Origin: a virus
Direction: 5' to 3' (one strand)
Length of the DNA: 35,996 nucleotides
IMG/VR virus record: IMGVR_UViG_3300031658_000037
Coordinates: 1 to 35,996 of that record
Part shown: piece after piece, positions 2,161 through 35,651 of the stretch
Position numbering within the stretch: the stretch's first letter is position 1
How the letters are laid out: every line of letters begins with the position of its first letter
Notes under the pieces: model-generated
Database searches by the model: none
What the model saw: the letters and a program-made list of their open reading frames with translations, nothing else
What the model was told of the DNA's origin: nothing
Translations under genes and position numbers: made by a program

Positions 2161-2220
2161 TCACCGTTAGATATTATTATTATTTACAATAGAAGTATTA
2201 ACTGTGACGAACTGTAAAGA
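2161..2220 (+). promoter_or_regulatory. Shared leader/operator element, primase copy
   Basis: The 45 bp at 2176-2220 match the reverse complement of 35399-35443 with three substitutions, and the likeness continues with a small gap to 2161. Within it are two AACTGT half-sites 10 bp apart (2200 and 2210) and an imperfect inverted repeat TCACCGTTA (2161-2169) / TAACTGTGA (2199-2207). It ends directly at the primase ribosome site. The other copy leads the late arm, so this looks like a common control signal acting on DNA or leader RNA. Confidence 0.8.
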
Positions 2221-2229
2221 GGAGTTAAG

Positions 2230-3804
2230 ATGAGCTTTATTAAAACGCACCAACCATGCGATCATTGCGGTTCAAGCGATGCCCGTTCGATCAACGAAGA
2301 CAACTCCAGCTATTGTTTCTCTTGTGAGGCAGTAACTAAGGGAGAAGGTGAAGCAGTGATACCCGATACACCTAAGAAGATAAAACACCAGGCCGCTACA
2401 GGTCAGTATCAGTCCATTATTGACCGTAGAATATCTAAAGAAACAGCTGAGAAGTACAGCGCACTCTCAAGTAATGGCCAGGTTGTGTTTAATTACTTTG
2501 GAGTTGACAGCCAAGAGCCAACAGCAGCGAAAACCCGTACCGAGCAAAAGAAGTTCTTTACTTCAGGTGACTGGCCTACTGCTTTGTTATTTGGACAGAA
2601 TCTATTCAGTGCTGGCGGTAAATACTTAACGATCACCGAAGGCGAGTTTGATGCGATGTCAGTGTCGCAGATCTTTGACGGCTACTCCTCTATATCAGTC
2701 AAGAACGGTGCAGGTTCTGCCGCTAAAGACTGCCGGAAGGCTTATGAGTACATAAACAGCTACGATAACGTGATTATCTGCTTCGATATGGACGAGCCTG
2801 GGCAGAAGGCGGCGAAGGACGTAGCAGAACTATTCGGAAGCAAGGCAAAGATAGTTAAGATGACGGACTTCAAAGACGCTAATGAGTATTTGGTGGCAGG
2901 TAAGGGAGAGGCATTTAAGAAGCAGTGGTGGGCAGCTGAGACGTTTACGCCTGATGGGATCGTTGCAATCCAGGACTTGACAGACGCAATAAAGATTCCA
3001 ATGGTACGCAGTGAAGTTCGGTATCCGTTTCCGAAGCTGGATGACCTCCTATACGGCATACGAGAGGCTGAGTTGGTTACTCTCTGCTCAGGATCTGGAC
3101 TAGGTAAGTCAACAATATTGCGAGAGATTGCGTTCTCTATGTTGGAACAGTCACCAGACCCGATAGGTTTAATGTTCTTGGAAGAGACACCAGAGAGGAC
3201 AGCGCGTGGCCTGATAGGGCTTGACATTAACAAACCAATACATTTACCTGGTGTTGATTACACGCCAGAGGAGATTGATGACTCGATAGAGCGTCTGAAG
3301 TTACACGATAGGGTCTTCCTATGGGATGCCTTTGGTAGTAACGAGATTGAACGTGTCCTGGGGCGTATGAGATACCTCGTTAAAGGTCTAGGCTGTAAGT
3401 TTATTATTCTTGATCACCTATCTATACTAGTATCTGATCAGGAGGGCGGCGACGAACGGAAATCCATCGACAAGATAATGACAAAGCTACGAATGTTTGC
3501 ACAGGAGATGCGGATTACATTGTTGCTTGTAAGCCACCTGAAGCGCCCTGATGGGAAGTCTCTGGAGGATGGTGCAATGACCTCTCTAGGACAGCTTCGC
3601 GGGTCAGCAGCGATAGGGCAGCTCAGTGACGCTGTTATAGGAGCCGAGCGTGATAGTCAGGCAGATGACCCGACAGTACGGAACACTACGCAACTAAGGG
3701 TACTAAAGAATCGGTTTAGTGGACAAACAGGCCCAGCGGATTCCTTGTATTACGATCAAGCAACTGGTAGGCTAACTGAAATAGATTTGGAGGATGCATT
3801 ATGA
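2230..3804 (+). CDS. Primase-helicase, T7 gp4-like
   Basis: This bifunctional replication protein primes and unwinds DNA at the fork. An N-terminal zinc finger (C10, C13, C29, C32) is followed by a TOPRIM primase domain with E137 (TITEGEFDA) and D186/D188 (CFDMDEPG). The RecA-type helicase has Walker A GSGLGKST (288-295), catalytic Glu at 318-319, Walker B FIILDH (D395), H436 in VSHLKRP and a likely arginine finger at R495. At 524 aa it is slightly shorter than T7 gp4 (566 aa) but complete. AAGAGGAG gives a strong ribosome site. It is the first gene after the shared leader element. Confidence 0.95.
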   Translation: MSFIKTHQPCDHCGSSDARSINEDNSSYCFSCEAVTKGEGEAVIPDTPKKIKHQAATGQYQSIIDRRISKETAEKYSALSSNGQVVFNYFGVDSQEPTAAKTRTEQKKFFTSGDWPTALLFGQNLFSAGGKYLTITEGEFDAMSVSQIFDGYSSISVKNGAGSAAKDCRKAYEYINSYDNVIICFDMDEPGQKAAKDVAELFGSKAKIVKMTDFKDANEYLVAGKGEAFKKQWWAAETFTPDGIVAIQDLTDAIKIPMVRSEVRYPFPKLDDLLYGIREAELVTLCSGSGLGKSTILREIAFSMLEQSPDPIGLMFLEETPERTARGLIGLDINKPIHLPGVDYTPEEIDDSIERLKLHDRVFLWDAFGSNEIERVLGRMRYLVKGLGCKFIILDHLSILVSDQEGGDERKSIDKIMTKLRMFAQEMRITLLLVSHLKRPDGKSLEDGAMTSLGQLRGSAAIGQLSDAVIGAERDSQADDPTVRNTTQLRVLKNRFSGQTGPADSLYYDQATGRLTEIDLEDAL

Positions 3805-26830: not shown

Positions 26831-27415
26831 TTAACCTACCTTAAATATATTTGATTTACTGAGGTTTTCAGTTGCAGGTATGACTTGTAGGTTTTCTGCT
26901 ACGTGCAGGCCGGAGACAAACTCACCTTGTAATGGTATTATGTGATCGACGTGGTAGACTCTACCTGTCATCTTTTCTAGTACCTTTGCGGTACAGTAAT
27001 GTTCCTTGAGCCAGAACTGCTGCCAGGGACACGTATCTGTGTATGCTGGAGTTCGCTGGAGCTTTGCTGCTCTGCGCTTTGCACTTCTAGCATTACTGTT
27101 TTCTGGGTTGTTCTTAGCCCATTCTCGGTCGTACTCGTTTAGACGCTCGCCGTGTTCTGCTCTGTAACTCTTAGCCCAATCGCTGAAGTATTCTTTGTTC
27201 TCTGCGTAGTATTTAGCGTTCTTCTCTTTCCAGTATTCTTTATTTTCTTCGTGGTGCTTCTTGTTAGCAGCAGAGATCTTATCTTTGTTCTTAGCCTTGT
27301 ATGCTCTGTTATAAGCAGCTTGACATATCTTACAATGAGACTTTAGAGTTTGCTCATCCTTTCGATTGAACATTGAAAGCTCTTTGGATTCGTTACAAGT
27401 AGTACAAGTCTTCAT
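26831..27415 (-). CDS. HNH homing-type endonuclease 1, 194 aa
   Basis: N-terminal zinc ribbon (C4, C7, C28, C31), a long Lys/Glu-rich linker with repeated Tyr/Trp-Lys helices, a SAKRRAAKLQRTP segment, and a C-terminal HNH motif (VYHVDHIIPLQGEFVSGLHV ... LSKSN). It is a paralogue of the genes at 32153 and 34696. First gene after the consensus promoter at 27448-27476. The final codons (FKVG, stop) contain the tail-fibre ribosome site. Likely a free-standing selfish nuclease. Confidence 0.9.
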   Translation of the reverse strand: MKTCTTCNESKELSMFNRKDEQTLKSHCKICQAAYNRAYKAKNKDKISAANKKHHEENKEYWKEKNAKYYAENKEYFSDWAKSYRAEHGERLNEYDREWAKNNPENSNARSAKRRAAKLQRTPAYTDTCPWQQFWLKEHYCTAKVLEKMTGRVYHVDHIIPLQGEFVSGLHVAENLQVIPATENLSKSNIFKVG

Positions 27416-29859: not shown

Positions 29860-29901
29860 ATAAGGATTCTCCTAGAGTGTTAATTGATGTGGTACAGGTA
29901 T

Positions 29902-29930
29902 ATTATACCATACTTTCGAGTAAATGTCAA
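29902..29930 (-). promoter_or_regulatory. Consensus sigma70 promoter for the capsid block
   Basis: On the minus strand: TTGACA (29930-29925), 17 bp, TATAAT (29907-29902), an exact consensus. The 41 bp at 29900-29940 match 35621-35661 at 36 positions, spacer included, so this promoter and the one at 35623-35651 share ancestry or extra conserved contacts. The -35 overlaps the stop of the small gene 29927-30061. Confidence 0.88.
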
Positions 29931-30061
29931 GCACTTTCTTTAACTTTCTTTACAGCCTTCTTCTTATCTGCTGCCTGTTGCTCACGAATGTCAAGCTCTT
30001 TGTTAACTTCTACCCTGATTAATATCAAGATCTGTTCTAGTTCTTTCTGCGTCATTAGCAT
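29927..30061 (-). CDS. Small charged helical protein, 44 aa
   Basis: ATG 30061 has GGAG about 9 bp upstream. The product (opening MLMTQKELEQILILIRVEVN) is an amphipathic helix with a very basic C terminus (ADKKKAVKKVKESA). No family is recognised. The TGA stop lies inside the TTGACA of the capsid-block promoter. The spacing and charge pattern look real, but it is short. Confidence 0.5.
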   Translation of the reverse strand: MLMTQKELEQILILIRVEVNKELDIREQQAADKKKAVKKVKESA

Positions 30062-32150: not shown

Positions 32151-32152
32151 GC

Positions 32153-32728
32153 TTAACCTACCTCAAATGAATTATTTTTACATATATTATCGTGTGCTGT
32201 TAAGATCTGGAGATTCAGCGCTACATGCAGACCGCTCACAAACTTACCGAGCAAAGGTACTATGTGGTCAACATGAAACTCAATACCTGTTAGTTCTTCG
32301 AGTTCCTTAGCACAAGTATAGAATTCTTTAATATTATCAAGACAAGCCCACGAAGGCGTCCGCTGTATCTTAGCCGCTCTGCGCTTTGCGGTGAGTGCGT
32401 TTACCTTACCTGCATTAGCCGTCCTATATGCTTTAGTACAAGCAGCTACCTTTTCAGGATTCTCTCTCGACCACTTTCTCTTACCCGCCGCTGCCTTATC
32501 TCTATTAGCTTCTGTCCAGGCTTTGTTATATATCGCAATCCTTTCTCTATTAGCTTCGCGGTATGTCTTACCATACTCCAGTTCTGCTTCTATATTAGCT
32601 TTTCGATAAGCCCTCTTGTAAGCATTATAACAAGTCTTACAAGAACGCTGTAACCCGTCCTTTTCACGCCTGCGCTTACTGAACAACTCAAGAGATTTCT
32701 CGACTTTACATTTATTGCAAGTCTTCAT
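32153..32728 (-). CDS. HNH homing-type endonuclease 2, 191 aa
   Basis: Same architecture as the genes at 26831 and 34696: zinc ribbon (C4, C7, C30, C33), repeated YRKANIEAEL/YREANRERIA-type linker, AKRRAAKIQRTPSW, and a C-terminal HNH (EFHVDHIVPLLGKFVSGLHV ... NICKNN). It is inserted between terminase large subunit and portal. Start 1 bp after the terminase stop (TGA-T-ATG). The end FEVG-stop encodes the portal ribosome site. Confidence 0.9.
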   Translation of the reverse strand: MKTCNKCKVEKSLELFSKRRREKDGLQRSCKTCYNAYKRAYRKANIEAELEYGKTYREANRERIAIYNKAWTEANRDKAAAGKRKWSRENPEKVAACTKAYRTANAGKVNALTAKRRAAKIQRTPSWACLDNIKEFYTCAKELEELTGIEFHVDHIVPLLGKFVSGLHVALNLQILTAHDNICKNNSFEVG

Positions 32729-33983: not shown

Positions 33984-34330
33984 TAAGAATACACCCACAT
34001 CAGTTTAGACTCTCTGGTATCTAAGTGGATGAAATCTGAACCGATACCGATACCACTAAACCCAAGAGAGAGCGCCCAGTCGATAAGGATAAACCTATCA
34101 GTAGAGTTGTTCACTGCAATGTCGGCAGCGATACCCTTAGTGTGCATTCCTAAAACAGCCTTACTCGCCTCTATTGTATGAAACGGTGATCTATACCCTG
34201 ACGTAATAACGAAAGGGAAGCCACAGAGACCTCTCAGTTCATCCAACAGAGCAACAAAGTCCTTAGAGATTTGATTCTCTCCAGTTTGCTGACACTTAAA
34301 CTCATCTAGTGTGAAATAGCTATACGTCAA
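33983..34330 (-). CDS. Peptidase M15 family protein, probable endolysin
   Basis: A 115-aa M15_3/VanY-like peptidase that should cut D-Ala cross-links in peptidoglycan. Zinc ligands H63 and D70 (GMHTKGIAADIAV) and H102 (DFIHLD), with SGYRSP (R47) before them, are all present. The frame runs back to 34360, but the two TTG codons at 34333 and 34330 have AAGGGG about 7 bp upstream. MTYSYFTLDEFKCQQTGEN is the usual opening, so TTG 34330 is chosen. It lies between the terminase genes with overlaps on both sides. It has no signal peptide, so export would need a holin. Confidence 0.85.
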   Translation of the reverse strand: MTYSYFTLDEFKCQQTGENQISKDFVALLDELRGLCGFPFVITSGYRSPFHTIEASKAVLGMHTKGIAADIAVNNSTDRFILIDWALSLGFSGIGIGSDFIHLDTRESKLMWVYS

Positions 34331-34694
34331 CAAAGTCCCCTTCGACAATCTCACCATCAATCTTCGGTGCTTCGGTTGTACTAATATTTATCTGTATCTG
34401 ACCAGAAGACTTATCTTTCAAGAATTCCTTTTCAAATGCTGATACAGGTGCGATCCGGTCAACAACGATCTTCCAAGCTGCGGCCTGGTTCTTATGGTCA
34501 TCGTTAAGCGCCGCGTCAAAGATCGACTCCAGTACCTTGGCAGACTTCGGCGAGGCTAACATACGAGCTTTGTACTCGTTGATCACAGAAGCATCACCTT
34601 TAGGTCGTCCTAGTACGCCGCGTTTACCCTTCTTCTTAGCAGCTACAGCCGCTTTAGTTGGCCTACCACGCTTAGGCTTTACGTCATCAGTCAA
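34320..34694 (-). CDS. Terminase small subunit
   Basis: The frame is open to ATG 34736, inside the HNH 3 gene. TTG 34694 has GAGGT (34707-34703) exactly 8 bp upstream and gives MTDDVKPKRGRPTKAAVAA, a typical small terminase opening, so it is preferred (124 aa). A basic AT-hook-like N terminus (KPKRGRPTK, LGRPKGD), then helices (LASPKSAKVLESIFDAALND, NQAAAWKIVVDRIAP) and an acidic beta C terminus fit phage small terminases. It recognises the packaging site. Confidence 0.8.
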   Translation of the reverse strand: MTDDVKPKRGRPTKAAVAAKKKGKRGVLGRPKGDASVINEYKARMLASPKSAKVLESIFDAALNDDHKNQAAAWKIVVDRIAPVSAFEKEFLKDKSSGQIQINISTTEAPKIDGEIVEGDFVDV

Positions 34695-34695
34695 C

Positions 34696-35349
34696 TCAAC
34701 AAACCTCGAATGAATTAGATTTACTGACGTTATCATGTGCTGTCAGTATCTGTAAGTTTGCAGCTACGTGAAGACCACTAACGAGTTCTCCTTGAAGAGG
34801 AACAATGTGATCAATGTGAAACTCGATACCTGTGAGTTCTTGCAACTTTTTAGCACATATATAATACTCTGTAATAGTATCATAACATACCCAGTTAGGA
34901 GTACGGAGTAACTTCGCTGCTCTACGTTTAGCTGCCCTGGCGTTTACCTTTCCTGGATTTCTTAGGTTGTAAGCTCTAGTGTGTTCTGCTCGTTTATCTG
35001 GATTAGCCTTCTGCCATCCCTTACTAGACTCTATACACCTCTCTCTATTAGCCTTGTAGTATTCTTTCTGAGTAGCTCTGACTTCTTCTTTATTAGTTTC
35101 GTACCATGCTTTCTGGCTAGACGCTACCTTATCTTTGTTAAGAACTACCCAGGCTCTCTTAGTAGCTTCCACTTCGTCTTTATTATCTTCACGGTAGTTC
35201 TTAGCGTAAGCCGTTAGATGATCTCTGTTATTAACATAACCAGCTTTAGAGCATGCTTTACAAATAGACTGCAAACCATCCTTCTTAGTCCTATTCCTAT
35301 AGAACAACTCTAAAGCCCTACTTTCTTTGCAGGTTATACAAACTTTCAT
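34696..35349 (-). CDS. HNH homing-type endonuclease 3, 217 aa
   Basis: First gene of the late arm, with GGAGGCTGC-ATG. Zinc ribbon (C4, C7, C30, C33), an extended linker with at least five YRxxN/WYETNKEEV-type repeats, AKRRAAKLLRTPNW, and C-terminal HNH (EFHIDHIVPLQGELVSGLHV ... VSKSN). It is longer than its paralogues through extra linker repeats. Its last codons (TTCGAGGTTTGTTGA) hold the ribosome site of the terminase small subunit. Confidence 0.9.
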   Translation of the reverse strand: MKVCITCKESRALELFYRNRTKKDGLQSICKACSKAGYVNNRDHLTAYAKNYREDNKDEVEATKRAWVVLNKDKVASSQKAWYETNKEEVRATQKEYYKANRERCIESSKGWQKANPDKRAEHTRAYNLRNPGKVNARAAKRRAAKLLRTPNWVCYDTITEYYICAKKLQELTGIEFHIDHIVPLQGELVSGLHVAANLQILTAHDNVSKSNSFEVC

Positions 35350-35398
35350 GCAGCCTCCATTGCCCCTAGTCTATGTAGACCCTGGGAAGATTAACATA

Positions 35399-35460
35399 TC
35401 TTTACAGTTCGTCGCAGTTAATACTACTATTGTAATTAATAATAGAAATATAAACTGTGA
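35399..35460 (-). promoter_or_regulatory. Shared leader/operator element, late-arm copy
   Basis: Reverse complement of the primase element at 2161-2220: 42 of 45 positions match over 35399-35443, and the resemblance extends to TCACAGTT at 35460. It lies between the late promoter and the first late gene (HNH 3/terminase), 50 bp before the HNH start. It ends with CTGTAAAGA like the primase copy, but the ribosome site follows only later. Confidence 0.8.
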
Positions 35461-35471
35461 TGCTGTATCTA

Positions 35472-35548
35472 GCTGTAAAGATTACATTGCAGTGACTTGA
35501 ACGGCGCGGTACAGATTCTTTGCAGTACATCGCTGTAATCTTTACAGC
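35472..35548. promoter_or_regulatory. Paired dyad operators, TGTAA-N3-TTACA
   Basis: GCTGTAAAGATTACA (35472-35486) and its exact 15-base inverse TGTAATCTTTACAGC (35534-35548) flank a 47-bp gap. Each is itself a dyad, TGTAA-N3-TTACA (35474-35486 and 35534-35546). GGCGCGGTACAGAT (35503-35516), shared with 219-232, lies between them. This is a likely binding site for a phage or host regulator, or an origin-binding protein. Confidence 0.65.
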
Positions 35549-35589
35549 CTTTGCAGCTACTTTACCGTAAGCAATGCTGACCTTTGCAG
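35485..35589. repeat. Iteron-like C(A/T)TTGCAG array
   Basis: Four motifs: CATTGCAG at 35485 and CTTTGCAG at 35518, 35549 and 35582. Spacings are 33, 31 and 33 bp, close to three helical turns, so all would face one side of the DNA. The intervening sequence is not conserved. It could be an origin iteron set or cooperative activator sites for the late promoter 34 bp away. Confidence 0.6.
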
Positions 35590-35622
35590 TCTTCACTTCT
35601 CTTTTGTTAACTCTATAGTTAT

Positions 35623-35651
35623 ATTATAGCACACTTTGGAGTAAATGTCAA
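35623..35651 (-). promoter_or_regulatory. Consensus sigma70 promoter for the late arm
   Basis: On the minus strand: TTGACA (35651-35646), 17 bp, TATAAT (35628-35623), an exact consensus. It is related over 41 bp to the capsid-block promoter. Transcripts would cross the iteron array and leader element (about 265 nt) before HNH 3 and the terminase genes. Confidence 0.85.

Follow-up and report, generated by a model that had tools for sequence, protein, structure and literature searches.

The two operon leaders of an uncultured, marine-type phage each carry a copy of one noncoding element, and our best guess, held at a probability of about 0.37, is that they act as paired replication origins driven by host transcription. 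A first-pass annotation had noticed the repeat and offered three readings of it: a common regulator, an antitermination or leader RNA, and a paired replication signal. Of these the last appears to fit best. To our knowledge, how replication starts in phages that have a T7-type replisome and no T7-type RNA polymerase is not settled. If the leaders are origins, they name candidate segments of 60 bp and would tie early and late transcription directly to the start and direction of replication forks; if they are operators or leader RNAs, they would still mark a shared control point for both gene arms in an uncultured phage group.

The window, that is, the whole stretch of DNA analyzed, comprises one virus record 35,996 bases long. 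Its ends carry a perfect 127-bp repeat (unique length 35,869) that is probably the overlap of a circular assembly, so that the genome itself is probably circular and the two copies, which point away from each other, would be separated by about 2.6 kb. The early arm begins near 443, is read rightward, and encodes a Toprim primase/DnaB-type helicase, a family A (PolA) DNA polymerase, a 5'-3' exonuclease, a relative of endonuclease I, and ribonucleotide reductase; late genes run leftward from 35,349 and encode terminase, portal, and capsid. A search for a single-subunit (T7-type) RNA polymerase (PF00940) gave no match in the window or in five near-full-length relatives, while the control recovered the T7 enzyme at E 1e-109. 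In the window no regulator gene, no repressor or lysogeny genes, and no tRNAs were recognized, and searches for a close cultured relative and for relatives of the first late gene in bacterial genomes found none. The genes, promoters, and elements at issue are as follows.

2103-2131, + strand: sigma70-type promoter P_E of the primase operon, TTTACA-17-TAAAAT, TG-extended, predicted start near 2138
2159-2220, + strand: element A, an AT-rich inverted repeat (2159-2210) plus CTGTAAAGAGG entering the primase Shine-Dalgarno sequence
2230-3804, + strand: Toprim primase/DnaB-type helicase, the gene right after element A
34320-34736, - strand: the first late gene of relatives, an AT-hook protein and possibly the small terminase, behind the HNH gene
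34696-35349, - strand: HNH endonuclease, an insertion that separates the late leader from the first late gene of ancestral type
35391-35462, - strand: element B, the second copy, inverted repeat at 35410-35462
35623-35651, - strand: late promoter, TTGACA-17-TATAAT, 12/12, TG-extended, predicted start near 35616

The 45-mer at 2176-2220 does recur inverted at 35399-35443 with exactly 3 substitutions in 45, as first described, and the likeness does continue beyond it: a gapless stretch of 54 nt (2175-2228 against 35391-35444 inverted) is 89% identical, and a gapped local alignment spans 72 columns (2159-2228 on the left side). BLAST of the element against its own genome returns the second copy at E 7e-16, and the early-late alignment score of 82 compares with a maximum of 25 among 300 composition shuffles. 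The other reported features are likewise present in both copies, namely two AACTG(T/C)-type half-sites 10 bp apart, the end CTGTAAAGA, and a position downstream of a sigma70-type promoter in the same sense as the genes that follow. What had been said of placement needs partial correction, as the left copy does stand before primase, but the right copy is followed by the HNH endonuclease gene before the first late gene of ancestral type is reached. The element begins about 20 nt after the predicted transcription start on the left and about 155-170 nt after it on the right, and copy B, from which AGAGG has been lost, lies 50 nt from the next start codon. A 64-codon ORF over element B (35402-35596) was considered as a gene and rejected, as it starts with GTG and lies wholly inside the leader; on inspection, matching ORFs were not seen in the leaders of relatives.

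Three genes of HNH/endonuclease VII-like or similar type are scattered over the late arm (26831-27415, 32152-32728, and 34696-35349), with 70% DNA identity between 32152-32416 and 34695-34959. The late arm also has three 12/12 extended sigma70-type promoters, the second of which (29893-29955, - strand) shares 85% identity with the late promoter region across 48 bp; a CTGTAAAG box precedes its -35 hexamer by about 18 bp.

The 45-mer is part of a cluster of short boxes around an AT-rich core, the members of which lie at these positions.

1855 and 2005, - strand: further boxes near P_E
2102-2109, - strand: CTGTAAAG box (CTTTACAG on the + strand) overlapping the -35 hexamer of P_E
2135, + strand: variant box CTGTATAG
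35350-35616, - strand: late leader, with CTGYAAAG boxes at 35400, 35473 (+), 35518, 35540, 35549, and 35582

The whole genome has 16 copies of CTG(T/C)AAAG where 3.6 would be expected. Seven of these boxes fall within 265 bp (35325-35589), six of them belonging to the late leader and the seventh lying just within the HNH gene, whereas in 200 simulated genomes no 270-bp stretch held more than 2; four more surround P_E. Such concentration at both leaders, with one box on the primase -35 hexamer and one near the capsid promoter, is what would be expected of an operator cluster, in which the short near-palindromic boxes are bound by a phage or host protein that sets a joint timing for the primase operon and the late operon. 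Two relatives (L006 and L010) that each use their own box in both leaders, and the tandem 11-bp array of CTTTAAAG in the late leader of L189, point the same way. Yet in relatives most boxes come after the start site, no gene for the regulator is recognized, and in the relatives L018-L036 no box is common to the early and late leaders. Joint control by operators seems rather unlikely, yet, like a leader RNA, it is a serious rival; the common regulator first proposed retains the clustering of boxes at both leaders, but as a shared sequence-specific factor it is weakened because the early and late boxes of L018-L036 differ. As separate observations, GCGCGGTAC occurs three times in the window, at 118, 220 (+), and 35504 (+), in noncoding region only, and CTGTACCGCGCC is kept in the late leaders of relatives as well.

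Relatives, gathered as many contigs by searches with the primase and the first late gene, retain the layout of the leaders and not their letters. A 25-base pattern from the element matched nothing in 2.9 million viral contigs, and the refuting test set by the first-pass annotation, absence of the element at homologous places in close relatives or a recent duplication, divides: the sequence is absent, even from the closest (L003/L004), and the early-late likeness of the window looks recent, but the architecture is kept. From these comparisons the exact element is private to this genome, and its layout is not. About 12 distinct relatives have an AT-rich core with inverted short boxes in the leader of the primase operon, of the late operon, or of both. 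Most of the relatives whose primases exceed about 64% identity share one early plan, in which a sigma70 promoter and a start-site box are followed by inverted boxes around an AT-rich core and finally by a box entering the Shine-Dalgarno AGAGG before primase; their late leaders hold a similar core within longer nested repeats. The letters of the boxes go by lineage, being CTGYAAAG in the window, CTTTAAAG in L006, CTGTTCAG/CTGAACAG in L008-L017, and CTTGAC...CATATAGG units in the late leaders of L018-L036. Contigs whose primases are more remote (from L032 on) have no early leader, in other clades many of the late genes follow a leader that is short and plain, and the regions around primase in HTVC104P and SIO1 show no comparable dyad pair. 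In L177 (2184-2395) an extra tandem unit, CATATAGGAACTTGACCA, stands in one arm only of the nested late-leader repeat, like a snapshot of the expansion of a hairpin arm.

These comparisons also bear on whether the element is nothing more than an AT-rich untranslated leader that was recently copied from one promoter to the other and has no specific function. Strong early-late likeness is limited to the window, so that it had to be given up as a general rule; and L003, the closest relative by primase, matches P_E at 28 of 29 positions but has a shorter, diverged leader. A and B most likely owe their near-identity to a recent intragenomic duplication or conversion, but in one relative after another it is these two leaders that carry dyads and AT-rich cores, and a leader with no function at all is improbable. 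Our own reading is that the identity of the copies is recent and the architecture of the leaders old.

Whether that architecture is selected as RNA or as DNA is a further question. A structured leader RNA might serve as an HK022 put-like antiterminator, as a hairpin for RNase III or transcript stability, or as a translation-enhancing leader like that of T7 gene 10. The element does lie in the transcribed leader heading both arms, as putL and putR do (PMC9378689). In most relatives the dyads are strongest at the two leaders, with folding z-scores down to -7; the terminal box enters the primase Shine-Dalgarno sequence in every lineage that has the early leader; and from L018 to L026 a change of CTTTAAAG/CTTTAAAG to CTTAAAAG/CTTTTAAG looks compensatory, with a G.U pair in L021. 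On the other hand, the antisense strand folds as stably or more so in several cases, including element B, the stem of L012 looks broken, and no Rfam family matches at gathering score. Selection on RNA should also leave an excess of G.U among mispairs, and none is seen: sense-strand G.U to A.C counts are 35:74 in late leaders and 13:13 in early leaders (dyads aligned regardless of strand, in related sequences whose counts are not independent), and this speaks against selection of the leader as RNA. The covariation check that had been suggested yields strong folding and strand-symmetric mispairs, with no sign of selection on the transcript strand, and the leader-RNA or antitermination reading, for which neither strand preference nor G.U excess appears, is unlikely. 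With moderate confidence, the pattern of pairing suggests that the dyads act mainly as DNA.

A physical property of DNA that the leaders do share is low duplex stability, as a nearest-neighbor scan in 50-bp segments makes plain.

2151-2200, no strand: core A, the second least stable 50-bp segment of the genome
35418-35467, no strand: core B, the least stable 50-bp segment of the 35.9-kb genome

The early core ranks 1-3 in 10 of the 10 relatives examined (L004, L006, L007, L009, L010, L017, L022, L026, L030, and L036) and the late core does so in L006, L010, L026, L030, and L036, within partial stretches of 8-21.6 kb; for L022 and L007, rank 2 goes to a segment at the late promoter and not at the core. 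The same scan of T7, with promoter positions taken from the T7 record, places its top segments at 427 (phiOL), 5937 (just after phi1.1B), 18560 (phi6.5), and 39244 (phiOR), the second of which is the primary origin. PMC12839067 cites Saito et al. 1980 on the T7 origin. Low stability right after a promoter is therefore a property of a known T7-type origin, though not one unique to origins, because leaders and promoters are AT-rich in any case and the T7 gene-10 leader ranks fifth. The margin of cores A and B over other AT-rich segments is, moreover, under 1 kcal/mol, and T7 origins are without comparable dyads, both of which count against the origin reading.

An AT-rich core could also be a packaging or terminase-binding site, bound by the AT-hook protein that is encoded first in the late operon. 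The late leader does adjoin the AT-hook gene in relatives, where the AT-hook match is above the curated cut-off in L221 and below it in L006. A packaging site would leave the copy before primase unexplained, however, and identification as a small terminase is only putative (the structure model, at pLDDT 57, is too poor for use), so that this function is highly improbable.

Under the preferred reading, that of paired origins, each element would be the AT-rich start of a host-RNA-polymerase transcription unit, with a function mainly at the level of DNA, and replication would start there coupled to transcription, as at the primary origin of T7. From a strong sigma70 promoter, transcription would run into a core that melts more easily than nearly all of the genome. 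The nascent transcript, we infer, would stay annealed there as an R-loop, its 3' end priming a T7-type replisome composed of the PolA-family polymerase and the Toprim primase-helicase. As the copies point outward, leading-strand synthesis would set out from them in opposite directions, in each case running the same way as the operon that follows. The flanking dyad boxes may aid opening, by binding protein or by extruding hairpins, and their letters may drift between lineages because the physical property outweighs the sequence. Elongation complexes of Escherichia coli as well as of T7 can supply a primer to the T7 replisome (PMC5997990). A strong promoter in front of a melting core, two copies facing outward, a T7-type replisome, and the lack of a detectable phage RNA polymerase are together consistent with priming by host RNA polymerase. 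It is possible, though on balance doubtful, that phages with T7-type replisomes and without their own RNA polymerase start from such an outward-facing pair, fired by host sigma70 promoters, with melting cores flanked by inverted boxes of fast turnover.

The intergenic region upstream of the late promoter has repeats of its own. In a separate related clade, the DNA upstream of the same late gene packs 4-9 exact DnaA boxes (TTATCCACA) into a few hundred bases (L090, L119, L209, L214, L215, and L220), possibly as a DnaA-dependent origin or a means of DnaA titration. Fur-box-like 7-1-7 inverted repeats (TGATAATnATTATCA, 1-2 mismatches) cluster upstream of the late promoter at L022:5756-5801, L007:933-978, L010:1459, L026:5240, and L036:5664-5783, with a degenerate copy in the window at about 310-330. 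The DnaA boxes of that clade can be counted for the origin reading, but, given both kinds of array, the true origin could be in this neighboring intergenic region instead.

Several known systems resemble the leaders in part. The stoperator arrays of cluster A mycobacteriophages likewise consist of multiple short promoter-proximal sites of lineage-specific sequence, but here no repressor or lysogeny genes accompany the boxes, which are near-palindromic and limited to two leaders. The T7 gene 10 leader, a translational enhancer, shares the AT-rich AACTTTAAG-type sequence before the Shine-Dalgarno sequence of relatives' primase leaders; such a motif stands directly upstream in copy A and in those leaders and not in copy B, whose distance from its start codon and lack of AGAGG differ from that system, and the dyads would remain unexplained. 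The put RNA of HK022 promotes terminator readthrough via the beta-prime zinc-binding domain. Its putL and putR are related noncoding elements downstream of the first promoters of both arms (PMC9378689), one near its promoter and one farther away, as are the copies here; unlike them, put is an RNA of about 70 nt with two selected stem-loops, whereas the leaders have one main hairpin, no preference for pairing on the transcript strand, and stems broken in some relatives. The promoter-linked segments of T7 (the primary origin after phi1.1A/B, phiOL, phi6.5, and phiOR) differ in using a phage RNA polymerase, of which the window and five relatives show no trace, rather than host sigma70 promoters, in having no strong inverted repeats, and in not forming an outward, near-identical pair, and origin use is so far only proposed for the leaders. 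Like the leaders, however, they present a promoter followed at once by an AT-rich segment of unusually low stability (ranks 1 and 2 here, by a small margin), together with short TTAAG-type boxes, a T7-type replisome, and more than one copy per genome.
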